DNA from: a virus
DNA: 64,000 nucleotides
IMG/VR virus record: IMGVR_UViG_3300033149_003379
Coordinates: 1-64,000 of that record
Reading direction: 5' to 3' (one strand)
Of the stretch, positions 2,955 to 39,579 are shown piece after piece. The translations under genes and the position numbers were made by a program. The stretch's first letter is position 1; every line of letters starts with the position of its first letter. Under the pieces are notes generated by a model, which was not told where the DNA came from, did not search any database, and saw only the letters and a list, made by a program, of their open reading frames with translations.

Positions 2955-2962
2955 CCGAACTA

Positions 2963-3043
2963 GGGGCTATGGCGTAATGGTAGGCGCAGCGGCCCTCAAG
3001 CCGCTTCCAAAACGGAGTGCAGGTTCGAATCCTGCTAGCCCCT
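2963..3043 (+). tRNA. Type II tRNA, probably tRNA-Leu(CAA), with an irregular anticodon loop
   Basis: The acceptor stem GGGGCTA/TAGCCCC pairs perfectly. D-stem GCG/CGC, T-arm GCAGG-TTCGAAT-CCTGC and a long variable arm (TCC/GGA) identify a class II tRNA. The anticodon arm AGCGG/CCGCT leaves an 8-base loop, or GCGGC/GCCGC a 6-base loop, so the anticodon frame is ambiguous between CAA (Leu) and TCA. Leu is favoured by the TAGGCGCA D-arm/stem context. No CCA is encoded. Confidence 0.75.
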
Positions 3044-3061
3044 GCTGAAGAAGGTTACAAC

Positions 3062-3951: not shown

Positions 3952-5505
3952 ATGAGTAGAAAATCCGCTCAACTCTTTCCTTCAGTTCATGCTGAGGCCA
4001 CAAAGGCTCGAAATTACGAAGGAGCGCCGACGTTCAAGAGGAGTGATGAAGAAAACCTTCTGAATGTCCTCATGTTAGGAACGCTTGAGGATACCTTCTA
4101 TGTAGATAAGACTGACCTAGTCGATCAAGCATCTGCACTGTTCGATCAGTTTCGGAAGAAGGACCCTGAATTTCTTGCTAAGGCCTTGGTCTATGCGAGA
4201 GAGAATGGCTTTATCCGAATGGCTCCTATACTCGGTCTTGTCTATCTGTCTCTTGCTAATGACAAGACCTACTTTCACTCTATTTTCCAACGAGTTATTC
4301 GTACTCCTAATGATTTGAGAGACTTCGTTCAAATAGTTCGAAGCGGTCAGATCAGAGGAATGGGTCGAACGGTTAAGGATGCTGTGAATGCCTTCCTTTC
4401 GACAAGAATGTCTGAGTATTGGGCTATCAAGTACGGGTCCAATTCTCAGAATCCGTCTCTTCGAGATATTTATAGGATGACTCGTCCTGTTTTGACTGGA
4501 AAGGCACAAGCCATCGCTAGATATCTCGTAAAGGGAGAGTTTGATGTTTCTCAGTTGAGCCAAGTGTCATACTTTGAGGCCCTTAAGAGTGTTGAAACTG
4601 AGGACAATGCAGTGTATTGCATAGAGAGAGGAGCACTTCCCTATGAGGTTGTGACGTCTCTTGCTCCTTCAACAAAGAAGGTATGGACTGCTCTTTTGTA
4701 TCAAGCTCCATACATGAATCTATTGATGAACCTCAACAACTTCCATAAATATGGAGTCTTTGATGATCCGAAGAATGTCGACTATGCAGTCAAGTACTTG
4801 GTTGATAATGTTGAGAAGTCGAAAATCTTGCCATTCAGGTTCTTCTCAGCCTATAAGGCGCTGAACGTAGACAACAATCGAATAATTGAGGCTGTCTCGG
4901 AAGCATTGGAGAGGTCATTCGTCAATTTGCCTGACATTGAAGGAAATGTGCTGATAGCGAATGACATCTCTGGGTCTATGAATTGTGCAATGTCGAATCG
5001 AGGAACCACTACCTATGCAGAGGTTGCAGGTATCTTTGCAGCGGCATTGTTCAAGAAGGCTGGAGACCACTCCAAGATAGTCTCGTTCAATACGCAAGCT
5101 CTTGGAAGAACTGTAAACCGAATGACTCCAATGCTTGATATGGCTCGAATGATTTCAAGCGGAGGAGGAGGTACTGATCTTAGTGCTCCTCTACAGTTCA
5201 TGATGAATAATCGTCACTTTCCTGTAGATGTAGGAATTTTCATTACTGACAGTGAGAGTTGGGCTTCGTACGTGTTTAAGCACAAGACTGACAAGAGCGT
5301 CATTGAGGAATACAGAAGGACTGTTAATCCGAATTTCAAGGCGTTCTTCATTCAACTTGCGCCATACACGCATGCTATAGTACCTAATAACTATCCTGGA
5401 TGTTACTACATCTATGGTTGGTCTGAGCAGATCCTTCAATACATCACTACGATCCTTAATGGCGGAGAGACACAAGTTTCTCAAGTAAGGAAGTTGGTGA
5501 TATAA
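3952..5505 (+). CDS. rsr: TROVE-domain RNA-binding protein (Ro60/Rsr family)
   Basis: A 517-residue protein, the usual size for bacterial Ro60 orthologues (Rsr). The start is the ATG at 3952 after AAGGAGGTG. Residues about 20-330 form an alpha-helical TROVE/HEAT-like ring. Residues about 330-500 form a von Willebrand A domain with a complete MIDAS: DISGSM at residue 338, GGGTDLSAP and ITDSESW. In known systems Ro60 binds non-coding Y RNAs and misfolded RNAs and hands RNA to exonucleases such as PNPase. Ro homologues are known in some phages (mycobacteriophage Bxz1). Here the gene has its own promoter and is followed by an array of four structured RNA elements, which fits a complete phage Ro/Y RNA unit. 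Confidence 0.92.
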   Translation: MSRKSAQLFPSVHAEATKARNYEGAPTFKRSDEENLLNVLMLGTLEDTFYVDKTDLVDQASALFDQFRKKDPEFLAKALVYARENGFIRMAPILGLVYLSLANDKTYFHSIFQRVIRTPNDLRDFVQIVRSGQIRGMGRTVKDAVNAFLSTRMSEYWAIKYGSNSQNPSLRDIYRMTRPVLTGKAQAIARYLVKGEFDVSQLSQVSYFEALKSVETEDNAVYCIERGALPYEVVTSLAPSTKKVWTALLYQAPYMNLLMNLNNFHKYGVFDDPKNVDYAVKYLVDNVEKSKILPFRFFSAYKALNVDNNRIIEAVSEALERSFVNLPDIEGNVLIANDISGSMNCAMSNRGTTTYAEVAGIFAAALFKKAGDHSKIVSFNTQALGRTVNRMTPMLDMARMISSGGGGTDLSAPLQFMMNNRHFPVDVGIFITDSESWASYVFKHKTDKSVIEEYRRTVNPNFKAFFIQLAPYTHAIVPNNYPGCYYIYGWSEQILQYITTILNGGETQVSQVRKLVI

Positions 5506-5514
5506 TTGGAGTGT

Positions 5515-5584
5515 ATGAGGTGTGTAGAGAGGTTACTTCGCTGTTTTGAAGACTGCACTAGGACCTTTCTCGTAACTTCCTCAT
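5515..5584 (+). ncRNA. Y-RNA-like stem-loop element 1
   Basis: The closing stem ATGAGG (5515-5520) pairs with CCTCAT (5579-5584). An inner stem AGAGAGGT (5526-5533) pairs with ACCTTTCT (5563-5570). The apical loop begins TACTTCG. The asymmetric internal loop contains conserved TG on the 5' side and AACTT on the 3' side. This is the first of four tandem copies sharing TGAGGTG, TACTTCG and TTCCTCA while the inner-stem sequence differs. Confidence 0.75.
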
Positions 5585-5603
5585 GTAAACCTATTGTATT
5601 AGA

Positions 5604-5696
5604 TGAGGTGCTGATCGGGCGTACTTCGACATATTACTGAATAGGTGCAACTAACATAGAATCAACTACTTTAGCGCCTGGTCTCGAATTTCCTCA
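5604..5696 (+). ncRNA. Y-RNA-like stem-loop element 2
   Basis: The closing stem TGAGG (5604-5608) pairs with CCTCA (5692-5696). The inner stem GATCGGGCG (5613-5621) pairs over 9 bases with CGCCTGGTC (5675-5683) using two wobbles. TACTTCG follows the inner 5' strand. The inner stem is unrelated in sequence to those of the other copies, so pairing is maintained by compensatory change. Its apical loop is longer than in the other copies. Confidence 0.72.
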
Positions 5697-5718
5697 ACGT
5701 TCCTTAAAAGATGCTAAC

Positions 5719-5790
5719 CTGAGGTGAAGGTGGAGTTACTTCGTTATTTTGTTGATCGAAGAATTAGTACTTCACCGTCAGCTTCCTCAG
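5719..5790 (+). ncRNA. Y-RNA-like stem-loop element 3
   Basis: The closing stem CTGAGG (5719-5724) pairs with CCTCAG (5785-5790). The inner stem GGTGGAGT (5729-5736) pairs with ACTTCACC (5769-5776). The conserved TACTTCG follows at 5737-5743. Same layout as elements 1, 2 and 4. Confidence 0.75.
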
Positions 5791-5800
5791 AGTTACATAA

Positions 5801-5871
5801 ATGAGGTGAATAGTAGGGTTACTTCGTTTTCTTTGCTAAAAACGCCACGCCTTACTAATAACTTCCTCAGT
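5801..5871 (+). ncRNA. Y-RNA-like stem-loop element 4
   Basis: The closing stem TGAGG (5802-5806) pairs with CCTCA (5865-5869). The inner stem TAGTAGGG (5811-5818) pairs with CCTTACTA (5850-5857). TACTTCG is at 5820-5826. It ends 19 bases before the next coding start, whose ribosome site AAAAGGAGG follows immediately. No clear terminator is visible after the array, so processing from a longer transcript is possible. Confidence 0.75.
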
Positions 5872-5889
5872 ATCTAAAAGGAGGATGAT

Positions 5890-6332: not shown

Positions 6333-6803
6333 GTGGTTATAGCGAATACACAAGTTAGAGCAGATTCAGGCAAGCTTTCATTAATCTCGGCGGTCTCCAT
6401 TGGTGATCGCCTGTTTTCGTGTAATGGACCTAGACCTGTATCAAGAATCTTGAGGAGACATGTAGACGAGAAGATAATCGCCATACGTACACCCAGAGAT
6501 GTGATATGGTGCACTAGGGACACTCTTTTTGTCAAAGATGATAGAACTATCATACGTGCAAAGGACCTCAAGAAGGGTGATCTTTTACTGTCTCACATCG
6601 TACGAAGGAATGGAGACATGGTGGTTATTCCAGTAGATTGGACCGATCCTTGGAGAAGCAAGGACGGCTGGCTTCAGAGATACACAGGAGAACAGGTCCT
6701 CTTTACGTTAGACAAGTGGTTTACTGGATTCATGTACTCTGTTGAACTCGAAGGCACCGACACGTTCTTTTGTAGGAGGTTGTGCATTAAGTGGGAGAAC
6801 TAA
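6333..6803 (+). CDS. Hint-fold (intein/hedgehog-like) domain protein
   Basis: A 156-residue protein from a GTG at 6333; this start has only a weak ribosome site, and the in-frame ATG at 6297 is blocked by TAG. The pattern follows the Hint module: NTQV, a VSIGDRLFSCNG..V block, a THPF-like hairpin, AKDLKKGDLLLSH, and the closing GFMYSVELEGTDTFF followed by IKWEN. Hint domains catalyse autoproteolysis or splicing. The usual N-terminal nucleophile Cys/Ser is not present five residues before NT, so activity is doubtful. Its end overlaps the following ART gene by 13 bases, recalling polymorphic toxins, where a Hint domain precedes the toxin. Confidence 0.65.
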   Translation: MVIANTQVRADSGKLSLISAVSIGDRLFSCNGPRPVSRILRRHVDEKIIAIRTPRDVIWCTRDTLFVKDDRTIIRAKDLKKGDLLLSHIVRRNGDMVVIPVDWTDPWRSKDGWLQRYTGEQVLFTLDKWFTGFMYSVELEGTDTFFCRRLCIKWEN

Positions 6804-8626
6804 CAAAACTTCATGAGTTGATCGCTGAGCTGTCAGAACCTCAGAAGCTCGAGAAGTTCTACTCGAAGAAATACAATCTTGAATTGATTCCACTGAAACC
6901 CGGACAATTGCCTCCGAAGGGAGCTCAGGTCTTTACAGGAAGGAGAGGTGGTAAATACTACTACTTTCCTCGTGGTAAAAAGAAGGAGGAAGAAGAGACT
7001 GTATCTCAACCGCAAATTGAGGAGAAGCCTGTTGAGACTGATCCTATCAAGAAATACACAGATGGGTCAAAGGAGGCTCACGAAAGGCTATTCAAGGAAC
7101 ATTCCTACGATCTAACAGGTCTTGTTAAAGATACTAAATACGATCGTATTGAATGGGAGGCTATACGTGAGTATGCACAAACTCACAAGGATAATGGAAC
7201 AGATAAGTTCTTAAAGGAAGCTATAGAGCATGCTCGCTATAAAAGATTTCTTGTTTGGTCGGCTGAATATGACAAAAATGTTGAGCTCGCAGTTGAATAT
7301 ATTAAAAAGGCTCGAGAAAAACATCCTGAGATTTCTCATCCTCATGAACGTGGAATAAAAGATTCTGCAATTAAGAATGATGATGGTGAATGGTGGCTTT
7401 ATAATCCATTAGAAAATGTCTTTGCTGGACGAGGAGACTATACATCTCTAACTAAAGATGATTGGGTTCATACAGGACTCAACGATCACAGTCGTAAATT
7501 ACATATAGATGTCGAAAATCATACTATCACAGACTCTAAGGATTCAAAGGTTTATAAGTTTAAAGACCTTGAGGACCTCCAAGAGATACTGATTGGTAGT
7601 TTCGGATTTTCATATGATGACAAAGACTCAATCAAAAGATCGTATAACTTTTTCTCTGAAATAGGAACTGACAAAGGAGACCCTCTTGAAAAGTTTTCTG
7701 AGGAGGAGACCACTGAATTTAAGAGACTAATAAGTCGCTTTGCACATGATGATTATGATGCATATCATATTGAAACTCGAACTCAAGATGAAATCTACAG
7801 GTTTTGTCAGTATTTAGCATCTGTAGACAAAATTGACATGTTCACCTCTGCACCATCATATTTAGACGAGGAACACGCTTCAAAATTAATTGATTGGACA
7901 GTCGGTCAGGTAAAAAGAGCACAATCTTTAGGTATAGCTCATCCATGTCAGGCAGATCTCTTAGGAATATTAATGGACTCTGGAGCTACAGGTGATGTTT
8001 GTGCCAAAGCATTAGCTGAAAGCTACAAATTGTACAGTCATTCTCATGGAGCGAGACTACCGATGCCACCCGTAATCGAGGACCAACAAAACTTAGATGT
8101 AGCTAAACATCAGGTCATTGATAATTTCTTGATTGCTGGTGGAACTAGAGCGCATCAAGCTCTCAGTAGTGCAGTCAACAAAATCTTCAATGGTAAAACT
8201 GATAGAACTGTATTTTATTGGAGAGACTCAGAGACGAGGCATGCAGAACCAATACCTCCATTAATAACCTCTCCTGATAATCAAATCCTCGCAGTCACTA
8301 AGGATATATATCGTGAGACTCAGGAGTATTTTAGAAACAAGAAGATAGATACAGTAACTGTATATCGAGGAGTCAATTCAGGCATTACCACGAATTCTCC
8401 GATTGAGAGTTGGACCGCCAGTTTAGATTGTGCTCGGCGTTTCAATGGAGGAAGTGGAGCAATCTTCAAGGTGACTGTACCGATCGATCGAATCTTTATG
8501 TCATACAAATCACAACGATACGATTGGTTACCTGAGGAAGACTTGGAAGGAAAAAAGGAATACACTCTGATAGGCATAAAGGATGGTAAATCATTATTTG
8601 ATGAATTCCAGGTGGAAAAGGTATGA
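6791..8626 (+). CDS. Tagged effector with C-terminal ADP-ribosyltransferase domain
   Basis: A 611-residue protein starting at a GTG after TAGGAGGT. Residues 35-59 carry the shared tag PPKGAQVFTGRRGGKYYYF, followed by a Lys/Glu-rich linker. The middle 350 residues are unrecognised. The C terminus (about 510-611) fits an R-S-E ADP-ribosyltransferase: VYRG (Arg near 526), ESWTAS, and KKEYTLIG (Glu near 590). Only one Glu of the usual ExE pair is present, so Arg specificity is not assured. It would transfer ADP-ribose from NAD to a host target. It overlaps its neighbours on both sides. Confidence 0.7.
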   Translation: MGELTKLHELIAELSEPQKLEKFYSKKYNLELIPLKPGQLPPKGAQVFTGRRGGKYYYFPRGKKKEEEETVSQPQIEEKPVETDPIKKYTDGSKEAHERLFKEHSYDLTGLVKDTKYDRIEWEAIREYAQTHKDNGTDKFLKEAIEHARYKRFLVWSAEYDKNVELAVEYIKKAREKHPEISHPHERGIKDSAIKNDDGEWWLYNPLENVFAGRGDYTSLTKDDWVHTGLNDHSRKLHIDVENHTITDSKDSKVYKFKDLEDLQEILIGSFGFSYDDKDSIKRSYNFFSEIGTDKGDPLEKFSEEETTEFKRLISRFAHDDYDAYHIETRTQDEIYRFCQYLASVDKIDMFTSAPSYLDEEHASKLIDWTVGQVKRAQSLGIAHPCQADLLGILMDSGATGDVCAKALAESYKLYSHSHGARLPMPPVIEDQQNLDVAKHQVIDNFLIAGGTRAHQALSSAVNKIFNGKTDRTVFYWRDSETRHAEPIPPLITSPDNQILAVTKDIYRETQEYFRNKKIDTVTVYRGVNSGITTNSPIESWTASLDCARRFNGGSGAIFKVTVPIDRIFMSYKSQRYDWLPEEDLEGKKEYTLIGIKDGKSLFDEFQVEKV

Positions 8627-10908
8627 AGGAAATTAAAGTTGGACATGTAAAGGTCTTAGTGCCAGAGAATCCGAAGGATGAACTGAGGATTGGCTCTATG
8701 AAGGATGTTGTTCCGACCTTTATGAATAATAAACGTAGGACTAGTGAGCTTATCAGAAAGGAACAAGCTACTCCGCCTCGTCCAGGTCTTGTCTTCGATA
8801 GAGTCAAACATCGTTGGATTAGGCCTAAATATGGGAAGGAGAAATACGAGGTAAACCTTCCACAAGAAATAAAGGAGATGAATGAGTACCTCGATAGGTT
8901 GAAGCATCGAAAACCTCAACTTAAGGAGCTCGGAGAAAAACTTGATGCTCAGCAGATATCAAAAATAAAGGACAACGTAGATGAATACTTAGGCCAGTAT
9001 GAACGCTTTTTCGATGCAGAAACCTACAATAAGGTTAGAAGTATCAGCTATAGGTTAGTCAGTTCCATCAGTAGATTCACATCCAGATACACTCCAGATG
9101 CACTTCAGGACCTTGTTTTTAAGTCCATTGACTGTCTTATTTACTGTGAAGCAAGGTCATGGGAGAGACAACTATCTGATCATGGTATCAGACATATATG
9201 GAATGATATTGATACAGCCAATCGTATATTCGATGCGATATCCTCTAAGAGTCCTAAAAATCCTATAACTAACCGAGAGGTCATGATGGCGAACCTCATT
9301 CTCATCTTCCATGATATCGGATATACTGCAGGTCCTGTTAGAGAGTCTATTGCTCATACAAAGCAACACCAGATTATCAGTCGAAGATGGTTCGAATATG
9401 AGAAGGAATTCTTCAAGAAGTATTTTTCTAATGACGAACTCGACTTCATGGCTGATATCATTCAGAATCATGATACTACGGTAATTGACTGGGAGAATCA
9501 CCGACTGCTGACTACGGTAAGTCTATCAGATAATTTATCCTTGTTCCATGAGGAGAAATTACCATCATTGTTTAGGTACGTGCCAGGATCGTTAGAAGTT
9601 CTGTTCGACTTGAAGGATGCTCTTGAAGCAGGAGATGAGAAAGCTGAAGATCGAGCTAGGGAGCTTCTGGATAAGAAGATTGATGAGTCCTATCTGCCTG
9701 AATACAGCAAAGCATGGCTCAAACAAGCTGCTAAGGGTATAAATCCGTATACTGTAAAGGTTACTATACCTATGCTGATCGGTCGGATCAGGCATTTCGA
9801 TTGGGAAGACTCTGGATTGGTCGTCGATATTGATGAGAGCCCATTTGATACGAAGGTTGCTCACTTCTTCGATATGGGTCAAAGAAAATACCAGAAGTTC
9901 GCTGAGGATTATGGTATAGACCTCAAAGATAACGATAATATCGAATTCGTTAAGGATGGAAAAAAGGTCCTGACATTGAAAATACGGAGAAGTCCTGAAC
10001 CTACCAAGATACGAAAGAAGTCATATGATGTAATGAAGGTTATGTCTACTCCTCCTCGTCCTGGATTAGTGTTTGATAGAACTAGACGGAGATGGATCAG
10101 ACCGAACAAGGATATTCCTAAACCTAAACAGGAGGAGCTCTCTAGTCCATCCAAGACTCTGCTCAATATGGGAGCTAAAGATATCTTCTTCGGTAAAAAA
10201 GAAAGAGTCAATAAAATTGTCAAAGAGTTGGAGCAAGAACTCAAGACTGCTAGAGACAACCTCATTGGAAAACAAGAGGCAGCTCAAGGAGAGATGCTTG
10301 TTGATGAATGGTGTGAAGGCTCTCTATTGAATATCTATGGTCTTAGGTTCCTAGCTGCAAAGATCTCGGAAGCAAACTTCTCTGAGGAAGAGATTTTGGA
10401 AGGAACCGAGACCTTTGGATTGAATGATAAGAGTCTCGACCTACTGAGACAGCTAAGTCAAGCTAAGTTTCTCATTCCAGATGAGCATGGAAATTTGTCT
10501 ACAGATCGGGCAGAAAATATCTTGAAGCGAGAAAAGGCCTTTGCTGAAAAGAGAGCACGAGAGCTCTTTGGAGATAAGATTAAAGTTTATAGAGCTGTTT
10601 ATGGAGAACAGGCCGAGCAGATATTAGAAGAGTTGGAGAAGAGCAAAACAGGAGAAGCCTCCTTTAGTACAATGCCGCTCGCATCGTATAGTCAAGACCG
10701 AGACGCTGCGGTAATATTTGCTCATAACAATTCAAAGGGAAAGACTTCTGTATTGATCGAACGAGAAATTGGAGCAGACGAGATTCAATTCGCATGGTTC
10801 TCAAATCCAGTGTTCTTGTATCAATTTAAGGAACAGTTCGAGGTTACTATAGCTCCAAAGGAGAAGACAATAACACTTAGTAGAGATTCGGTGACTAAGT
10901 TATGGTAA
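8623..10908 (+). CDS. Tagged effector: HD phosphohydrolase-like domain plus C-terminal ART-like domain
   Basis: A 761-residue protein coupled to the previous gene by ATGA. The tag PPRPGLVFDRVKHRWIRP is at residues 51-68, and a second copy (PPRPGLVFDRTRRRWIRP) lies near residue 476. Between the copies is an HD domain: His near 187, HDIGYT at 230-231, NHD near 283 and SDN near 303. HD domains hydrolyse nucleotides or phosphodiesters. After the second tag, the C-terminal 130 residues have VYRAV, an Ser/Asp-rich strand and EQFEVTI, suggesting a diverged ADP-ribosyltransferase. The internal tag makes it look like a fusion of two tagged proteins. Confidence 0.65.
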   Translation: MKEIKVGHVKVLVPENPKDELRIGSMKDVVPTFMNNKRRTSELIRKEQATPPRPGLVFDRVKHRWIRPKYGKEKYEVNLPQEIKEMNEYLDRLKHRKPQLKELGEKLDAQQISKIKDNVDEYLGQYERFFDAETYNKVRSISYRLVSSISRFTSRYTPDALQDLVFKSIDCLIYCEARSWERQLSDHGIRHIWNDIDTANRIFDAISSKSPKNPITNREVMMANLILIFHDIGYTAGPVRESIAHTKQHQIISRRWFEYEKEFFKKYFSNDELDFMADIIQNHDTTVIDWENHRLLTTVSLSDNLSLFHEEKLPSLFRYVPGSLEVLFDLKDALEAGDEKAEDRARELLDKKIDESYLPEYSKAWLKQAAKGINPYTVKVTIPMLIGRIRHFDWEDSGLVVDIDESPFDTKVAHFFDMGQRKYQKFAEDYGIDLKDNDNIEFVKDGKKVLTLKIRRSPEPTKIRKKSYDVMKVMSTPPRPGLVFDRTRRRWIRPNKDIPKPKQEELSSPSKTLLNMGAKDIFFGKKERVNKIVKELEQELKTARDNLIGKQEAAQGEMLVDEWCEGSLLNIYGLRFLAAKISEANFSEEEILEGTETFGLNDKSLDLLRQLSQAKFLIPDEHGNLSTDRAENILKREKAFAEKRARELFGDKIKVYRAVYGEQAEQILEELEKSKTGEASFSTMPLASYSQDRDAAVIFAHNNSKGKTSVLIEREIGADEIQFAWFSNPVFLYQFKEQFEVTIAPKEKTITLSRDSVTKLW

Positions 10909-12647
10909 ATATCGATATACAAGATTGGTTGGATAGGGTAAAGATCGACGAAGAGGTTGGTGAAACCTTGAAAAAGGAACAAGCTGTTCCTCCAAGGCCA
11001 GGTCTCGTCTTTGATAGGCAGAGACATCGATGGGTTCGTCCAGATAAGGAACGACCGAAGGACTTCAAGTCTCCTAAAGAAGATCTGACCTCTATTTCAA
11101 TACCAGAGAACCTGAAGGGAGACAAACAAGCTGAAGAGCTTATTAGTGTTCTCAACGAGAAATTGAAGAAACTGAAGGAAGACGAAAGCTTTGCTCCATC
11201 ATATCTCGACAATTACGAGTATGATTTACTAATGAATTACTCGGAGGAGTACGCAGAACAACTTGTTCCAATAATAGTTGATTACTACAAGAAGGCTCTC
11301 GATATAGGAGTCAAAAGTGCTAAAGATAAAGACAGGTTCGATAAGTTAACATTTGCGGCAAATAAGATTATTCACGCTCTCTATTATCGAACTAGAGACT
11401 TTCATACTGATTCGAAGGAGGTTCACGACTTACTAGAAACATGCTTAAAGAAACCTTATGAAATAAAGGGAATATTATCACCTCGAGAAGCGAATCGTCT
11501 TTTTGATTATGGTGCTGAGCCTCGTCTACTTAGAGAACATTTCAACTTATTCAGTAAATATGCGTCTTCAATAAAAGAATTTTCTTACTTATTCAAGATC
11601 AGAATTTCTGATGCTCTTTTAGAGAAGTTTAGTAAGAAAGTTGATTTTGTTATGAGTCACTTGAGCCAAGATGAGCTTGACGAGATAAGCTTAGAAAATA
11701 TCATAGAGAGCTTAGCATATAATTGTAAGTCTTCACAGCTTGGAACTGTAGAAGGTCTCGCACATAAAGTATCTGAGACTCTTCGTACAAAGTTCAATGA
11801 TGAGGAACACAGTGAAAGATATAATTCAATTTTCAGAGCTATTGAGCATCGAAAGACTCTTCTTAATAAGATCGGTCTTGATAACCTTAAGCGCTATAAG
11901 GAAACTGGAGAATTAAGACTTCCATCAGGTAACGAATTCAGATCGAAGTTGGAAGAAATCGTAGACATGAGTGTAAAGGACCCTGGTGAAGATACCAAAG
12001 AGTTTGTTTCGGAAATTATGGCTGAGCTTGGAATGAGGGATGTTCACGAACTATTGGTTCGAGAGTGGGAATCTTCTGCTAACTCTCTTGGAGGCAATGC
12101 TCTGTCAAAATACATAGCGGAGTTTTATGATGGTGAAGTAAAGTATCATGAGTTTAAAGGCCCAGAGGATGTTTTACATGCTGTAGAGCAGCTAGGAATG
12201 GTGGATTTTGGAGAAGAAAAACTTACCAAATATATCAAGGAGCACTATCATTTGACTCAAGAAATGCTGAAGTACACCTTTCCTCATACAAACACAATTA
12301 CTTTGTATAGAGGAACCTCTACTTATGAAAGTAAAAATATCGATGTAATAAGAGAGGCTTGGAAAAAACGAATCAAGAGTGGAGACCAAATTCAAGTTGA
12401 TTCAAACTCCGTCAGTAGCTGGACACTTGACAAAGAAGTTGCGCGAAAATTTGCCAATCAACAAGAAGTACGTGGCTTAGTTTTGAGAGCTGAGGTTCCA
12501 TTGTCTTCGATATTTGGATACTTGGCATCATACTGTTTCAGAGGAAATGAACGAGAGTTTCTCGTCATAAAGAAACCGAAGAACAAATATTACATAGAAG
12601 ATGCTTGGGCGTTCCATCATACAGAGGAGGAACTCTATAATGAATAA
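10902..12647 (+). CDS. Tagged ADP-ribosyltransferase effector
   Basis: A 581-residue protein overlapping the previous gene by 7 bases. The N terminus IDIQDWLDRVK resembles the DWLK leader of its neighbours. The tag PPRPGLVFDRQRHRWVRP is at residues 30-47. A helical middle is followed by a full R-S-E signature: LYRGTS (Arg 470), SVSSWTLDKEVARKFA, and NEREFLV with E550-x-E552. The ExE motif is typical of arginine-specific ARTs of the VIP2/C3-like toxin clade. It is about 50% similar by eye to the next protein in its C-terminal half, so the two are paralogues. Confidence 0.8.
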   Translation: MVNIDIQDWLDRVKIDEEVGETLKKEQAVPPRPGLVFDRQRHRWVRPDKERPKDFKSPKEDLTSISIPENLKGDKQAEELISVLNEKLKKLKEDESFAPSYLDNYEYDLLMNYSEEYAEQLVPIIVDYYKKALDIGVKSAKDKDRFDKLTFAANKIIHALYYRTRDFHTDSKEVHDLLETCLKKPYEIKGILSPREANRLFDYGAEPRLLREHFNLFSKYASSIKEFSYLFKIRISDALLEKFSKKVDFVMSHLSQDELDEISLENIIESLAYNCKSSQLGTVEGLAHKVSETLRTKFNDEEHSERYNSIFRAIEHRKTLLNKIGLDNLKRYKETGELRLPSGNEFRSKLEEIVDMSVKDPGEDTKEFVSEIMAELGMRDVHELLVREWESSANSLGGNALSKYIAEFYDGEVKYHEFKGPEDVLHAVEQLGMVDFGEEKLTKYIKEHYHLTQEMLKYTFPHTNTITLYRGTSTYESKNIDVIREAWKKRIKSGDQIQVDSNSVSSWTLDKEVARKFANQQEVRGLVLRAEVPLSSIFGYLASYCFRGNEREFLVIKKPKNKYYIEDAWAFHHTEEELYNE

Positions 12648-14364
12648 AAATCTTGTTATAGAGATTGATTTTAATAAAAAGGATGCTGACTGGCTGAAGA
12701 CTCTTAGAGAAAAGACTGAAGAACCTATTCAGAAAGAACAAGCGGTTCCTCCGAGACCGGGACTTGTGTTTGACAGACAACGACACAGATGGGTTCGACC
12801 TGTAAAGGAAGGTCCGAAGGAACCTAAGTCTTCTAATATGAATAAGCTTCGTATCTCTATACCTGATGACATAAAAGTAGATGAAGAAGTGAAGAATGTT
12901 GTCAAAGACTTCGAAGAATCCTTAGAGAAAATGCAGAATGATGATGACTTTGTTCCTTCATATTCTGGTAGAGGCCTATTGGAGAGTTACTTCGGCGAAT
13001 CTGTTAATAAGTTCATACCATTACTTATTGATTATTACACGAAGGCTCTCGATGTATGTGTGAAGAATGAAAAACATACTGTTAGATTTCAGTATTTCGC
13101 AGCTTGGGCACAGAGCCTTGTCTCAATTTTAACTTCTGATGAATGCAAGAAGTATTCTAAGGAAATAAGAGCTTTGATAGAAACATGCTTGAGAAAAAAG
13201 TTTGTAGTAAAGGACATAGAGCCTAATTTTTATAGCCTAAACGAACTTTACACTTCTGGCCCTGTCATACTCAGGAGGTATTTCGGTCTCTTCTGCAAGT
13301 ATGCATCATCACTAAGTGAACTTGAGGCCGTTCTTAAAGTAGAAGTCTCAGACGAGCTTTTAGAGAAGTTTCGTAAGAAATTATATTCTTGGCTCGAACA
13401 CCCAGATAAAATCTCACCAGCCGTACACGCCAGATTAGAAAACTTAATGTCCTTCTTAGCAGTTTATTGCAAACCTTCACAACTTGAAACCATAAAAGAA
13501 CTTGAACATAAAGAATATATGACTCTGAGTTCTTATGCTGATCCAGAGGTCAGCTCGCTACTAGAGAGAAAGATTAAGGAAAGACAAGACCGTATAAACA
13601 AAGTAGGTCTCAACAATATCAAGCATTTCGCAGAAACTGGTGAATTGAAATTACCGATTGGCAATGAATTCAGAAGCATGCTAGAAGCCGTTCCTGATAT
13701 GAGCGTAAAGGACCCTGGTAAGGAGACTAAGAAATTAGTGAGAGAAATCATGAGTGAACTTGGTCTTGCAAAGGTTCATTCAAAGCTAGTCTTAGATTGG
13801 GAAAAGTCAGCAAATTCGACAGGAGGAAACGTCCTATCAACATATATTGCGAAATTGTATGACGAGAAGGTGAAGTATCATAAACTGAGAGATGAACTTA
13901 GTGTTTCGTCTGAGGTCCGAGAAGCAGAAGATAGGTTCGGAGAAGACAAACTTTTGGAATACACCAAAAAACACTATGAGTTGACACAACAGATGTTGAA
14001 GTACTCATTTCCTCATAAGAATACAATTACCTTGTATAGAGGAACCTCCGTTGAAGAAGGTAAGGGCAAGAAGTTTAAAAGTGACATCACAGAAGGGAGA
14101 GTGAAGTTAGGTGACTCGGTCGAAGTTGATGCTAATTCAGTTAGTAGTTGGACGCTCGACAAAAAGGTTGCTCGTAAATTTGCGAAAAGTAGAGCTACTC
14201 AAGGAGTAGTATTGAAGGCAGAAGTTCCGCTGTCTTCTGTATTTGGATATTTAGCTTCATATTGTTATAACGGAAATGAACGTGAATTCCTCGTAATAAA
14301 GAGACCAGAGAATACCTATTACTTAGAAGATACTTGGGTACATTACGGAGATGACAATGACTAA
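12640..14364 (+). CDS. Tagged ADP-ribosyltransferase effector, paralogue of the preceding gene
   Basis: A 574-residue protein; the ATG at 12640 follows GAGGAGGAAC and overlaps the previous stop. Residues 5-23 read VIEIDFNKKDADWLKTLRE, a leader shared with the GNAT protein at 14357. The tag PPRPGLVFDRQRHRWVRP is at residues 37-54. The C-terminal ART has LYRGTS (Arg 467), SVSSWTLDKKVARKFA and NEREFLV (E547, E549). The large helical region between tag and catalytic domain aligns with the 10902 product. Probable NAD-dependent modifier of host protein. Confidence 0.8.
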   Translation: MNKNLVIEIDFNKKDADWLKTLREKTEEPIQKEQAVPPRPGLVFDRQRHRWVRPVKEGPKEPKSSNMNKLRISIPDDIKVDEEVKNVVKDFEESLEKMQNDDDFVPSYSGRGLLESYFGESVNKFIPLLIDYYTKALDVCVKNEKHTVRFQYFAAWAQSLVSILTSDECKKYSKEIRALIETCLRKKFVVKDIEPNFYSLNELYTSGPVILRRYFGLFCKYASSLSELEAVLKVEVSDELLEKFRKKLYSWLEHPDKISPAVHARLENLMSFLAVYCKPSQLETIKELEHKEYMTLSSYADPEVSSLLERKIKERQDRINKVGLNNIKHFAETGELKLPIGNEFRSMLEAVPDMSVKDPGKETKKLVREIMSELGLAKVHSKLVLDWEKSANSTGGNVLSTYIAKLYDEKVKYHKLRDELSVSSEVREAEDRFGEDKLLEYTKKHYELTQQMLKYSFPHKNTITLYRGTSVEEGKGKKFKSDITEGRVKLGDSVEVDANSVSSWTLDKKVARKFAKSRATQGVVLKAEVPLSSVFGYLASYCYNGNEREFLVIKRPENTYYLEDTWVHYGDDND

Positions 14365-33583: not shown

Positions 33584-33614
33584 TTTCTTGAAGGAGGACA
33601 ATAAAGGAGGTATC

Positions 33615-34556
33615 ATGGTCGGAAACAAGTTCGACAAGGAACGCCACTTCGGAGTAGAGTTCGAAGGTTTCTGTCGAGATCGAGAGGTTCTCCTCTATAA
33701 ACTGAGGGAAGAAGCTGGATTAGATGTGGTTACTGGTGGACACTTCGATCGACCAGGCAGTCGCCGCTGGTTATTGACATCAGACGGCTCACTTGTTGCA
33801 AGTCCTCATTCACGCACAAGAGTTCCGTTTGAGTTGAAGACTCCGGTACTCAAAGGACTTTCAGGTCTTCGTAAAATCGAAAGTGCATGTAAGGTACTTG
33901 AGGAAGAGTGTGAAGTGAATTACTCTTGTGGTCTTCATGTTCACCACGATGCGCATGATCTGACGAGACAACAAATAGAAAATGTCTACGTGCTATACTA
34001 CAAGTTTCAATCTCTTATCGACTTGATGGTTCATCCTGATAGGAGGGAGAACCGATGCATATATGCACAAGCGCTTCGACGCAGATCTGTTAGCAGAGTT
34101 AACTTCTACGCTGAAGATCGATATTACAAGTTGAATCTCGCTTCAGTGGCTCTTCATGGAACTCTTGAGTTTAGGCAACATCAAGGGACCTTGAACTTCT
34201 TAGAAGTGAAACACTGGATAGTATTCACTCAGGCGATGATAAATGCAGCTATCTCGACAGACAAGAAGCTGTCCTTCCGTCAAGTTAAGAAATGGGACAA
34301 TCTTCGAGGTATCCTTGGAGCCTACAAATGGATGAAGTCCGGCAAGTTCCTTCTCGAAGCGGAAGAGTTCTATCGGCCGTTGATTACTGGTCAGCCTGTA
34401 CGAAGGCGGCGGTCAGTCACTCCTGAGGAGCCAGTACTTACTGAAGATGGAGTCGAAGTTGAAAGCCTTACTTCCAATGGCACAACAATTATGGCTACAG
34501 TTGATGTAACATTATCTCCGACAGGAGAGCCGCAAATCTCTATTAGGTCAGCATAA
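33615..34556 (+). CDS. Amidoligase-family enzyme
   Basis: A 313-residue protein with ATG 33615 after AAAGGAGG. HFGVEFEGF, the His-rich SCGLHVHHDAHDLT, a RENRCIYAQAL stretch and a TLEFRQHQGTLNF stretch are the hallmarks of the putative amidoligase family (COOH-NH2 ligases related to glutamine synthetase/GCS). Such enzymes form amide or peptide bonds using ATP. It is followed by a class II glutamine amidotransferase, the pairing described for amidoligase systems proposed to modify peptides or peptidoglycan. The C-terminal 50 residues look disordered. Confidence 0.75.
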   Translation: MVGNKFDKERHFGVEFEGFCRDREVLLYKLREEAGLDVVTGGHFDRPGSRRWLLTSDGSLVASPHSRTRVPFELKTPVLKGLSGLRKIESACKVLEEECEVNYSCGLHVHHDAHDLTRQQIENVYVLYYKFQSLIDLMVHPDRRENRCIYAQALRRRSVSRVNFYAEDRYYKLNLASVALHGTLEFRQHQGTLNFLEVKHWIVFTQAMINAAISTDKKLSFRQVKKWDNLRGILGAYKWMKSGKFLLEAEEFYRPLITGQPVRRRRSVTPEEPVLTEDGVEVESLTSNGTTIMATVDVTLSPTGEPQISIRSA

Positions 34557-34803: not shown

Positions 34804-35718
34804 ATGTGTAGGATTGGAGCTGTAATTCACTTCGGAGACTATCGAGTCTCTACTGATGAGCTTTCAAATTTGCTCCTGAATATGCAACATGGAGGTCGAG
34901 ACGCGACTGGTGTTGGATTCATCGACGAAGATACTCTTATTGCGTCTAAGACGCCAGGTCCGGCGACCTTAGCAGTTCCTAAATTGACACCGTTTATGAA
35001 TCGATATGTAAAGAGAACTAAGGTTGCTTTGCTTCATACGAGATTGGCAACTCACGGCTCTCCGGAGTCTAACTTGAACAACCATCCGATCTTAGGAGAT
35101 AAGTTGATGATGGTTCATAATGGTGTAGTTTGGTTGCCGATGAAGTTCCGATCGAATGGAGCCACAGATACTGAACAGATGCTTCGGGCTATGGAGGCTT
35201 TCGGAGTAAAGTATGGGCTTGAATTCACACATGGCTCTATAGCGGCAGTCTTTGGCAATAAGAGGACGCTGTTCTGGATGAGACGATCAATTTCTCGACT
35301 CAGTGCAGTCTTCGATGCTGAGTTGAAAATCTTAGTCATCTCTACTGAGATGAATGACATTCTGAAGTCTGTACGTTTCGAGAGGCCATTTGAAGTTCCA
35401 ATTCTTCCAGGAAATCTCTATCGAATGGACATAAAGTCGAATAACATTAAGGTCTTGACAGTGAACGAGCCGGTGTTGCATCGGAGTAGAGTCTTAGATA
35501 CAACACCACGAAGGACTGACTTAGAGATTCCGGTGCGTAGCTTAGAAGAAGCCTACCGGCCTGAACCTGCATTTGATTTTGATTCTATTGATGACTTGCA
35601 TAGCGTATTTGAAGAGTCTCTGTCAGAAACGCTTAGTCGGTTGGATATGGAGGACTTCACCACAGTTGATGAAGCTGACTCAGATGAGGAGATGATTAAC
35701 ATCTATGAAAACGTCTAG
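34804..35718 (+). CDS. Class II glutamine amidotransferase
   Basis: A 304-residue protein whose Cys2 (MCRIGAV) becomes the N-terminal nucleophile after Met removal. LLHTRLATHGSPESNLNNHP and MMVHNGVVW give the Arg/Asn/Gly residues of the Ntn glutaminase site. It resembles the glutaminase domain of GFAT/PurF without a synthase domain. It would supply ammonia, most likely to the neighbouring amidoligase. The C-terminal 80 residues are acidic. Confidence 0.85.
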   Translation: MCRIGAVIHFGDYRVSTDELSNLLLNMQHGGRDATGVGFIDEDTLIASKTPGPATLAVPKLTPFMNRYVKRTKVALLHTRLATHGSPESNLNNHPILGDKLMMVHNGVVWLPMKFRSNGATDTEQMLRAMEAFGVKYGLEFTHGSIAAVFGNKRTLFWMRRSISRLSAVFDAELKILVISTEMNDILKSVRFERPFEVPILPGNLYRMDIKSNNIKVLTVNEPVLHRSRVLDTTPRRTDLEIPVRSLEEAYRPEPAFDFDSIDDLHSVFEESLSETLSRLDMEDFTTVDEADSDEEMINIYENV

Positions 35719-36087: not shown

Positions 36088-37230
36088 ATGGACGCGCAAG
36101 AATTCTTGGCAATCTATTCGAAGCTTGCTCACAATGAGGCTAGCTCCGGAGAGATAAATTATGCCTTCACTAGGCTCAGACCCCTTTTGAAAGGTCTTTC
36201 GATCGGTTCGAGGTTTTCCTCAGCTCATTCCACTTTAGATAAGCTGATCTGCTTAGATGTGGTAGCTCATTGGATTCACCAGGAACCTACTAGAATCACT
36301 CAGGTGTGGTCCGATGCAGATCCGATGATAGCCAAATCAACTCTAGACAGTTTGGCCGGTTATGAATCAAAAAATGATGTTAGGAAATTCAACCGAGGTT
36401 ACAATACTAACCTTCTTGCGAAGGGACCTATTGAGGTCCTCGGAAGTAAGCTAACCGCTAAACATCGTCTTGGAACTCGTGAGAGTATCCGTCCAGCTGA
36501 AGAGAGACTTGTAAAGAAGTGGGTGGCCTTTCCTGATGAGTTGTCATCTGCTGAAAAGACTCTCTTGAAGCGTCTCGGTTATAAGATCTCTCTCGATGGC
36601 GTGTCAGAACCTTTGGTTGTCGGTGGTCCGTGTTCTGTAGAGATGATTGATAAGGAGGGACACCTCATTACCATAAAGGCATTGAAGGAAGCATTCGATA
36701 GGTTTATGAGGAATCCGTCGTACGCTAATGTAATGATGCTCCATTCTGACATGCAAGTTGCTCAGGCTCTGCCATTTTGGATAACTAAGGACGGTACGAT
36801 CTATGAGAGTGGAATTAAAGACAATTATTTATATCTGATTGCGGCGCTCAGAGATGACGATGATATGAGTATTATCTCTAAGATTCGGAAGCAGATCGAA
36901 GATGGCACAATCAAATCATACTCTATTGCAGGTATCGCTCTTAACAAGGAGTTGAAGTCGAAGCAAGGTCAGGTCTTCTATCAGATAGACGCTCTCGATT
37001 TAGGTGAAGTTAGCTTTTGTGCAGATCCAGTCAATCCTGGAGCGTCATTTGAGATTCTCAAATCGAGTGATGGATGTATAGATTATTATGTGGACACTAA
37101 AAGGTCACACGTCGTGCGTTTTCGTGAACTCCTGGTGACACTGGACAACAAGCCACTAGTGACGAAGTCTATTGCAGGATCAGGGAGTGCTCTAGAAGAC
37201 TTTAAGAAATTCCTAAGTGAGGCAGTTTAA
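36088..37230 (+). CDS. Prohead protease, XkdF-like
   Basis: A 380-residue protein; the C-terminal 200 residues follow the XkdF/prohead serine protease pattern. They contain a VEMIDKEGHLITIKALKEA stretch, MMLHSDMQVAQALPF with the catalytic His, KSYSIAGIALN with the catalytic Ser, and LGEVSFCADPVNPGA. The N-terminal region is a helical domain. It would process scaffold and capsid proteins in the prohead. There is no ribosome site: the ATG lies 9 bases after TATAAT, suggesting leaderless translation. Confidence 0.85.
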   Translation: MDAQEFLAIYSKLAHNEASSGEINYAFTRLRPLLKGLSIGSRFSSAHSTLDKLICLDVVAHWIHQEPTRITQVWSDADPMIAKSTLDSLAGYESKNDVRKFNRGYNTNLLAKGPIEVLGSKLTAKHRLGTRESIRPAEERLVKKWVAFPDELSSAEKTLLKRLGYKISLDGVSEPLVVGGPCSVEMIDKEGHLITIKALKEAFDRFMRNPSYANVMMLHSDMQVAQALPFWITKDGTIYESGIKDNYLYLIAALRDDDDMSIISKIRKQIEDGTIKSYSIAGIALNKELKSKQGQVFYQIDALDLGEVSFCADPVNPGASFEILKSSDGCIDYYVDTKRSHVVRFRELLVTLDNKPLVTKSIAGSGSALEDFKKFLSEAV

Positions 37231-37241
37231 CGAGGTGTACA

Positions 37242-37448
37242 ATGCCGGCAGAAAGTGAGTCACAAAGAAGATTGATGGCTATAGCTCTAGGGATTAAACG
37301 GGGAGAGATCCCGAGGTCGTATAGCAAAAAGGCTGCAGAACTTGCGGACTCGATGACTACAGAGGAACTTGAGGATTTTGCCTCGAAATCAATGACGAAG
37401 TCTCTCGGAGAGTTTGAAAGATTCTTAGTGAAAAACTCAGAAAGTTAA
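37242..37448 (+). CDS. Small conserved phage protein (DUF3008-like)
   Basis: A 68-residue protein beginning MPAESESQRRLMAIALG, with KKAAELADSM and LEDFASKSM. This matches the small MPA-S-Q-R family found next to head genes in many phages. Role unknown. Ribosome site CGAGGTG. Confidence 0.7.
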   Translation: MPAESESQRRLMAIALGIKRGEIPRSYSKKAAELADSMTTEELEDFASKSMTKSLGEFERFLVKNSES

Positions 37449-37483
37449 GAAAGAGAACTACACCTGTACATGTTCTTTGTGGC

Positions 37484-37672
37484 ATGTTCTGTAGTTTCGT
37501 ATATCACTTCTATCCAGGTTTGTCAGTGCTTCTGTTTGTTTCCTTCTCAGTATTTGAAATTTGGCAGGCTTCCGAAGAAGGCGACACAGGTTGCATTGAT
37601 TACTGGGAAGGAGTGTTTGGTCTATTTGTTGGAGCCGCTATTTTGTGGCTTTGGAGGATTCTATGCATATAG
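37484..37672 (+). CDS. Small membrane protein
   Basis: A 62-residue protein with two membrane helices (about 8-25 and 44-60) separated by EIWQASEEGDTGC. This frame is preferred over an overlapping one (37470-37697) because of its regular two-helix layout and because it ends at the following start. Ribosome site weak. Confidence 0.5.
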   Translation: MFCSFVYHFYPGLSVLLFVSFSVFEIWQASEEGDTGCIDYWEGVFGLFVGAAILWLWRILCI

Positions 37673-38703
37673 AGGATTTACGCAACAAAGCTCGTAGACT
37701 TGAATCGAACATCGTTTCGGTAGGTATAGGTAAAAAGTATGTCAAAGGTCAGGATACTGGCCGACTAGCCTTGCAGATAGGTGTGTTGAAGAAGCTACCT
37801 AAAGCATATCTGAAGGCTAGCGATATTGTTCCTCGTTCAGTGGATTCTATCGAAACTGACGTTGTCGAAGTCGGAGATGTTCGAATACCTGAATTGATAA
37901 AAAGTCAGGAAGTGGATCGTACAGTCAGAGTTCGGCCAGCTCCATGTGGAGTGTCTATTGGACATAAAGATGTAACGGCAGGAACTCTCGGACTTGTTGC
38001 TACAAAAAATGGTAAGAGAGTGATTGTCACCAATAACCATGTAGGAGCCAATGTTAATCGAGGAGTCAAAGGTGATCCTTGGTATCAACCAGGTCCGTAC
38101 GATGGTGGGCAATTTCCTGACATTATTGCTAGATTGTCTGAATATGTTCCGATTTATCCGGTGAATGAGATACCATCAGACTGCCCCGTAGGTTCAACTT
38201 TAGCAAAGGTGTTCAATTTCTTAGCTGAGAAATTCAATCGAGCGACTAGGCTCTCTGCTACTGTGATTCATGCTGAGCCAAATCTTGTGGATGTTTCTCT
38301 TGGTGAGGTGCTTCATCCATATGATGTTACATTTGAGGTCCTCGGTTTCGGCTCCTACAATTTGAAGGACATCCGAGTTGTTGAGCCTGAGATTGACATG
38401 ACTGTTAAGAAGAGTGGTAGGACTACTGGATGTACCGAAGGAAAGGTGACTGCAATTGATGTTACATTGAATGTGAATATGGGATCGTTCATTGCAGTGT
38501 TTGAAGACCAATTTTTGACAACTCCGATGTCTGAAGGCGGAGATAGTGGTTCACATACCTTTACTAAGAATATGGACTTAGTCGGTCTCTTGTTTGCAGG
38601 TAGTGAACAGATAACTGCTCATAATACGTATATGAACGTGATAAATGAGATCGACTTGGATGCGTATCTACTCAATGATGAAGTTTTTCTGAGTTGTACA
38701 TAA
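37663..38703 (+). CDS. Trypsin-like serine protease
   Basis: A 346-residue protein with ATG 37663 behind GGAGG. VIVTNNHVGAN carries the catalytic His and MSEGGDSGSHTF the nucleophilic Ser; the Asp is probably in the PYDGGQFPDIIARL segment. KSGRTTGCTEGKVTAIDV is the typical strand before the Ser loop. Such proteases appear in some phage head regions. A role in capsid maturation or host-protein cleavage is possible. No signal peptide. Confidence 0.8.
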   Translation: MHIEDLRNKARRLESNIVSVGIGKKYVKGQDTGRLALQIGVLKKLPKAYLKASDIVPRSVDSIETDVVEVGDVRIPELIKSQEVDRTVRVRPAPCGVSIGHKDVTAGTLGLVATKNGKRVIVTNNHVGANVNRGVKGDPWYQPGPYDGGQFPDIIARLSEYVPIYPVNEIPSDCPVGSTLAKVFNFLAEKFNRATRLSATVIHAEPNLVDVSLGEVLHPYDVTFEVLGFGSYNLKDIRVVEPEIDMTVKKSGRTTGCTEGKVTAIDVTLNVNMGSFIAVFEDQFLTTPMSEGGDSGSHTFTKNMDLVGLLFAGSEQITAHNTYMNVINEIDLDAYLLNDEVFLSCT

Positions 38704-38724
38704 TTATTTCTATTAGAGTATAAT
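38694..38724 (+). promoter_or_regulatory. Promoter of the capsid operon (TTGTAC-N19-TATAAT)
   Basis: TTGTAC at 38694-38699 overlaps the end of the protease gene; TATAAT is at 38719-38724. The spacer is one base longer than at 36050. It precedes a 75-base leader ending in a terminator-like hairpin. Confidence 0.5.
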
Positions 38725-38730
38725 TATGTT

Positions 38731-38830
38731 GAGTCATAGTCGCAGAAGAGAAAGGCCAAGAGTACACTAGCAAATTCTGAATAGGTCGAGTAAAGGAGAG
38801 TCGAGTTCATGCGAATTCGGCTTCTTTTTG
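38731..38830 (+). ncRNA. Leader or small RNA between promoter and hairpin
   Basis: About 100 bases between the TATAAT start point and the T-rich end of a hairpin contain no gene. This could be a free small RNA or a regulated leader of the capsid operon. Confidence 0.4.
38799..38829 (+). terminator. Rho-independent terminator or attenuator before the scaffold gene
   Basis: AGTCGAGTTC (38799-38808) pairs with GAATTCGGCT (38813-38822) over 10 bases with two G-U pairs and a 4-base loop, followed by TCTTTTT. Its position upstream of the scaffold/capsid genes suggests either termination of the upstream operon or attenuation. Confidence 0.6.
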
Positions 38831-38861
38831 TGTATAAAAATTAGAAACATGGAGGAATGGA

Positions 38862-39566
38862 ATGGAGATAGATGAGATTAAAGAGACCTTGGAGAAGGTA
38901 CAGAAGGGGCAAGAGGGTCAGGTTACGGCATGGAAGGCTGTAGCTGAGACTTTGGATAAGATGAGTGATGTCCTCGAGAAGATGAATACTGCTCTATCAA
39001 AGCAGGAAGAGGACGAAAAGGAAGATGAAGACGAGCGGATGGTGGATGAGCTTGCTGAGAAGGTGAAGGCTAAGATGGCTGCTACTCAAATCTCGAAGGA
39101 AGACTCGAAGGAGAGTTCGGCCAAGCTGAAGACCAAGCCTGAAGCGCAGCAGGACATCATCCAGGGATCCGCAAATAGCGACGTTAGCAAGGCAGATGAG
39201 GATGAATGGGAAGATGAGGATGAGGAGGAAGGAGAGGTCAGGAGACCTCCTAGAGATGTTGATGAGAATGCGCAAGTGAAGGCTCTCAAGTCATCACTTG
39301 ACAAAGCGGTCGCGGAAGCTATGCGTAGCGTCGATGTGAAGGGTATCGTGGAGAAGGCTATTGATGAAAAACTCTCGAAGATGGGTGTCGGTGAAGCCAG
39401 GTCCGTTAAGAGAGTCAGCATCCCAGTTAATCCCGATTCCCAAAACCTCTCGCTGAAAAAGTCAGCAAAAAGAGAGGACATAGTCGAGGAGCTGTCCAAG
39501 ATGTCTTGGAGTCAGCTTTCGAGACTCGAGGAAGCCGTGAATAACGGCGAAGTAACGCTTGAATAG
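38862..39566 (+). CDS. Capsid scaffold protein (inferred)
   Basis: A 234-residue, very charged, helix-rich protein immediately upstream of the capsid gene and preceded by TGGAGGAATGG. N-terminal coiled coil (residues about 1-70), acidic stretch DEDEWEDEDEEEGE, then basic C-terminal helices that could bind the capsid protein. Position and composition are those of a phage scaffold; no sequence motif proves it. Confidence 0.65.
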   Translation: MEIDEIKETLEKVQKGQEGQVTAWKAVAETLDKMSDVLEKMNTALSKQEEDEKEDEDERMVDELAEKVKAKMAATQISKEDSKESSAKLKTKPEAQQDIIQGSANSDVSKADEDEWEDEDEEEGEVRRPPRDVDENAQVKALKSSLDKAVAEAMRSVDVKGIVEKAIDEKLSKMGVGEARSVKRVSIPVNPDSQNLSLKKSAKREDIVEELSKMSWSQLSRLEEAVNNGEVTLE

Positions 39567-39579
39567 AGGTGAATGATTA

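Follow-up and report, generated by a model that had tools for sequence, protein, structure and literature searches.

Directly downstream of a gene for a Ro60/Rsr-like protein, the first 64,000 bases of the 68,219-base IMG/VR record IMGVR_UViG_3300033149_003379 (hereafter the window), which derive from a tailed phage encoding head and tail proteins, carry four tandem elements that are very probably phage Y RNAs, that is, small stable RNAs that would attach to the outer surface of the upstream-encoded Ro ring. The reading supported by sequence comparison is that these elements belong to a divergent class of bacterial and phage Y RNAs, of which the window copies represent a minimal form. A preliminary description of the window had proposed them as candidate phage Y RNAs, and this proposal is supported: the elements fall in an RNA family that covaries, accompanies Ro genes on the Ro strand in viruses and bacterial chromosomes, and includes long members matching YrlA.

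The gene, described earlier as encoding a complete TROVE/vWA protein, does so: its coding sequence (3952-5505, plus strand) specifies 517 amino acids, in which Pfam identifies the TROVE domain of the Ro60/Rsr family (6e-14, 52.4 bits against a cut-off of 23) and a vWA_Ro60 domain (9e-13, 48.9 bits), the latter with a DxSxS motif of the metal ion-dependent adhesion site type (DISGSM, D338 to M343). The protein also matches phrog_850 (RNA-binding protein) at 4e-41. Its AlphaFold2 model (predicted local distance difference test score of 84) forms a ring of helical repeats closed by the vWA domain, as judged by comparison with the Ro60-RNA complex (1yvp), the Rsr protein of Deinococcus radiodurans (2nvo) and the Ro60 protein of Thermus phage phiLo (9l5y), with template modelling scores of 0.79, 0.70 and 0.65, respectively. 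By sequence and predicted fold, the window gene is a clear Ro60 homologue. Single-protein searches found no close relatives of the protein, and PADLOC assigned no defence family to it or to six of the downstream-encoded proteins.

The 384 bases after Ro (5506-5889) are non-coding, with no open run of more than 49 amino acids in any frame, in agreement with the approximately 380 bases originally reported, and the first element starts 6 nt past the Ro stop codon. The window contains the pattern TGAGGTG...TACTTCG exactly four times, always on the plus strand (at 5516, 5604, 5720 and 5802), compared with an expectation of 0.02 in shuffled sequences, and the rest of the record has no further occurrence; TTCCTCA follows downstream in each copy (5577, 5690, 5783 and 5863). 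Coordinates and sequences alike bear out the description of four copies of one architecture sharing these three motifs. Copy 1 (5511-5589; TACTTCG at 5534-5540) combines an outer stem of GTATGAGG (5513-5520) and CCTCATGT (5579-5586) with an inner stem of AGAGAGGT and ACCTTTCT. Copy 2 (5600-5701; TACTTCG at 5622-5628), which has a longer loop, pairs TGAGG with CCTCA in its outer stem and GATCGGGCG with CGCCTGGTC in its inner stem, while the corresponding helices are CTGAGG/CCTCAG and GGTGGAGT/ACTTCACC in copy 3 (5715-5795; TACTTCG at 5737-5743) and TGAGG/CCTCA and TAGTAGGGT/GCCTTACTA in copy 4 (5799-5873; TACTTCG at 5820-5826). In each copy an asymmetric internal loop (UG plus 2-3 nt opposite 5-6 nt plus UU) separates the outer stem from an inner stem of 8-9 pairs, and no T arm or D arm motif is found in the loops, the tRNA-like module being absent.

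The inner stems, as had been pointed out, are dissimilar in sequence yet paired: the 8-nt arm beside each TACTTCG pairs at 8 of 8 positions with its own partner, compared with 4-7 of 8 with the partners of the other copies. The true arrangement is the best of 24 permutations, and an 8/8 pairing by chance has a p of about 0.005 per copy. The earlier claim of textbook covariation within the window thus holds for the inner stem and fails for the outer stem (TGAGG/CCTCA), which is identical across the four copies and for which evidence of covariation must therefore come from relatives. Relative to shuffled sequences, copies 3 and 4 fold far better (z of -3.5 and -3.4) and copies 1 and 2 slightly better (z of -1.5 and -1.4), and in all four copies the plus strand folds better than the minus strand. 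A consensus scan places a candidate promoter for the array at 5478-5506 on the plus strand (TTCTCA-17-TATAAT with TG ahead of it, scoring 10 of 12), overlapping the Ro stop codon; its predicted +1 falls near 5513, where the outer stem of copy 1 begins. As promoter-like sites are not enriched in the region (24 versus 17.5 expected), this assignment is only suggestive.

Relatives were sought among 56 viral Ro loci collected with a two-sequence Ro profile (an alignment of nine Ro proteins was too diverse to serve as a search profile), which were scanned with a descriptor consisting of GGUG, an inner stem, ACUU and UUCC. A matching architecture adjoins Ro genes in other phages and is without counterpart on the opposite strand. 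Within 12 aligned copies from outside the window, 91% of the cells are paired and both sides have changed in 14 of 17 pairs, giving a covariation score of 0.744 compared with 0.204 when shuffled and at most 0.201 when slid. Inner-stem pairing in these twelve is partly selected, because the descriptor required an inner stem, but the outer stem beyond GG/CC was not required when the sequences were picked, and it is 94.8% paired with six of its eight pairs changed on both sides. A covariance model built from the twelve (R1), with no window sequence inside, recovers three of the four copies in the window when 587 kb are searched (E 0.001-0.003), namely copy 1 (23.9 bits, E 0.0013), copy 3 (22.6 bits, E 0.003) and copy 4 (23.0 bits, E 0.0023). 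For the set of 70 members underlying a second model (R2), three of them window copies, the covariation score is 0.886 versus 0.223, and R2 yields 90 matches in viral loci, every one of them on the Ro strand. A loss of covariation on addition of homologues had been named as grounds for abandoning the proposal; instead, both helices covary in relatives, and two helices with an internal loop and covariation support are what is broadly expected of a bacterial Y RNA. The exact window pattern has no match in IMG/VR except the window's own record, and the major-capsid relatives (L069-L076) are short contigs in which the absence of any Ro or RNA match is uninformative.

The order of parts in the class is outer stem, internal loop, inner stem, UACUUC and a variable terminal loop, with UACUU present in 62 of the 70 members. 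Most relatives have a single bulged base in the outer stem, two pairs below the internal loop, which is absent from the window copies, and the consensus of the internal loop is UGnA/GCnnGUU, from which the window copies have diverged further. Arrays of 2-6 copies per locus are usual, so the array in the window is not, as initially supposed, unusual in having four; they mix short members, which lack a T arm/D arm module, with long ones (mostly >105 nt), whose permuted tRNA-like module, known from YrlA, comprises a T arm in 64 of 80 and frequently a D arm as well. Arrays with only T-arm-free members are those of the window, L044 and L045.

At relaxed thresholds YrlA (RF02553) matches the long array members at the same coordinates with 36-52 bits, compared with a gathering threshold of 69, and L008 also has a sub-cut-off YrlA match; the class is thereby tied to known bacterial Y RNAs. 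YrlA RNAs share with the window copies both their location next to Ro and the order of their parts (outer stem, asymmetric internal loop, inner stem, conserved segment and loop module), but differ in having AUGCU in the internal loop and in carrying a tRNA-like module; UGnn and UACUUC, without such a module, characterise the window copies. In being short and without this module, the window copies resemble YrlB (RF02565), a 78-nt Salmonella Y RNA encoded in the rsr-yrlBA-rtcBA operon (PMC7790460), although they do not match its covariance model. A second group of Ro phages carries YrlA-type RNAs (GAAUGC-[stem]-UUACAU...UUGUC), which a descriptor matched 29 times in Ro loci, on the Ro strand in every case. 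Several form arrays, and many lack the tRNA-like module (loci L017, L019, L020, L022, L024, L025, L028, L029, L030, L035, L038 and L041); a short element of this sequence type in L017 matches YrlB at 30.5 bits. The class of RNA tracks the Ro tree (10 label changes compared with 36.9 when shuffled). In this tree, whose row L131_cellB is to be disregarded as an evident wrong reading frame (branch length 10), the window Ro forms a long branch beside the YrlA-type clade, yet carries the other RNA type.

The linkage of RNA and Ro gene is also seen in searches that started from the RNA, a design that guards against circularity. With an exact 20-base consensus pattern, 26 stretches were found in viral and genome collections, the sole true member among them being L079, which contains five tandem R2 matches and is the only one of the 26 with an adjacent Ro gene. 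Across 297 Bacteroidota genomes, 14 were RNA-positive with R2, 13 of which fall among the 24 that are TROVE-positive (Fisher p 2e-15, a value that overstates the independence of the cases because the genomes are mutually related), and the fourteenth has a partial Ro gene match adjoining the RNA. Clear matches were present in 17 of 20 Bacteroidota Ro loci, all on the Ro strand, with one (L127) weak (E 0.011). A covariance-model search near TROVE genes had been suggested in the preliminary description; the models of the class place its members beside Ro in Bacteroidota as well as in other phages.

In addition to the relatedness of the Bacteroidota genomes, several observations weigh against the interpretation of the elements as Y RNAs. 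No Rfam Y RNA family matches the window copies; indeed, no Rfam family of any kind matched them at E ≤ 10, including YrlA, YrlB and the vertebrate Y RNA (RF00019), consistent with the initial impression that they follow no known Y RNA consensus. Divergence within the set is greatest for the window copies, of which copy 2, the weakest of the four, is not significant alone (R1 14.0 bits, E 0.93 in 587 kb and 0.0024 in a 1.5-kb search). Furthermore, Listeria phage P100, in which the Ro gene is assigned by synteny, gives no model match, so that Ro phages need not use this RNA class.

The position of the array, which starts 6 nt past the Ro stop codon in the window and 12 nt past it in phiLo, would also suit cis elements in the 3' untranslated region of the Ro mRNA, bound by Ro for self-control and with no free Y RNA. 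This principal alternative is improbable, because many arrays are upstream of Ro (L045, L050, L051, L059, L063 and L064) and that of L048 lies on both sides; the full permuted tRNA-like module in long members also speaks against it, as does the promoter-like site that may start the array separately. A function unrelated to Ro, in which the elements serve as sponges or regulatory small RNAs by pairing through UACUUC or UGAGGUG with transcripts of the host or the phage, would account for the conserved unpaired hexamer and for the resemblance of GAGGTG to a Shine-Dalgarno sequence, but is very unlikely given the genome-wide linkage to Ro genes and the homology of the long members to YrlA. A DNA-level repeat (a recombination site, or packaging or origin hairpins), for which the tandem spacing and short perfect repeats might be cited, or chance is excluded by the strong covariation in relatives and the strict strand bias, and the G-U pairs favour one strand.

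As Y RNAs, the elements would be transcribed, processed from the array and bound by Ro, each forming a two-helix rod of outer stem, asymmetric internal loop and inner stem, with UACUUC opening the terminal loop. If the parallel with bacterial Y RNAs holds, Ro would dock on the outer stem and internal loop, and the loop end may gate the Ro channel or serve to hold a partner, for example PNPase. The Y RNA of D. radiodurans has been proposed to tether Rsr to PNPase and to gate its channel in the Rsr-Y RNA-PNPase complex, RYPER (PMC4726728); this proposed working fits the window array, in which a Y RNA outside the Ro ring would serve as tether and gate. With copies that share a docking end but have unrelated loops, a single Ro protein would be able to choose among Y RNAs. 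It is conceivable, if rather doubtful, that Ro arrays constitute a swappable set of adaptors, in which one ring loads any co-encoded Y RNA and the business ends are plain loops or tRNA mimics; phages and Bacteroidota would then tune the nuclease, tRNA-processing enzyme or substrate engaged by the Ro particle, and the window phage would have pared its set down to four plain-loop forms.

Among characterised phages, the structure of the phiLo Ro60 has been solved (PDB 9l5y, 9kop), and its gene, like that of the window, is followed by elements of this RNA class, one beginning 12 nt past the gene (L007:4491-4559) and a weaker one at 4681-4765, although the protein is 22% identical to the window Ro. 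As class members lie beside the gene of a solved Ro60, the structure of a complex is directly approachable. A Ro-like gene with noncoding RNAs nearby is likewise found in mycobacteriophages with Y RNAs and at the Rsr locus of Listeria phage CKA15, in which three short regions are highly transcribed, the Rsr homologue is present in virions and the RNAs are only proposed to be Y RNAs (PMC12282133). Since P100, a relative of CKA15, does not match the model, these transcription data could not be tied to the present class. P100 does contain a ROOL-like RNA (L078:39073-39624, minus strand, 86 bits against a cut-off of 99.1) approximately 1 kb upstream of gp165, the presumed Ro gene; this RNA may correspond to one of the three regions with high transcription in CKA15.

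Ro genes and Y RNAs were already known from phages, as were, from bacteria, Y RNAs that have a tRNA module (YrlA) or lack one (YrlB), and the function of bacterial Y RNAs has been studied in very few species. Relative to Rfam and the literature searched (Chen et al., 2014 and Sim et al., 2020 lie outside this comparison), novelty appears to lie in the sequence class itself, in its occurrence as tandem arrays in both Bacteroidota and phages and in all-minimal arrays such as that of the window. Of the arrays found, Rfam recognises almost none, and in 16 loci it assigns no name to any of them at gathering thresholds, leaving the class largely uncatalogued. What the class now provides is a catalogue, together with a consensus for the docking end and a reason, open to testing, why one Ro protein should have many Y RNAs.

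Elsewhere in the window, the protease and major capsid protein (36088-40911) are nearest to those of haloarchaeal tailed viruses. Sigma-70-like promoters are present, and a perfect TTTACA-17-TATAAT at 621 is an argument for a possible bacterial host, an archaeal one having been considered because of the capsid genes. A tRNA-like gene (2962-3045, Leu-like, with a CCTCAA loop) precedes the Ro gene by about 900 bases; its anticodon loop of 6 nt is not assignable by ARAGORN. A run of paralogous large proteins at 6791-14364 shares a PPRPGLVFDRxRHRWVRP motif, and two of these proteins, which are possibly head-associated effectors, match DRAT-type ADP-ribosyltransferases. Finally, a gene of the Amidoligase_2 family (33588-34556, 5.7e-29) is followed by a glutamine-amidotransferase-like gene (34804-35718).
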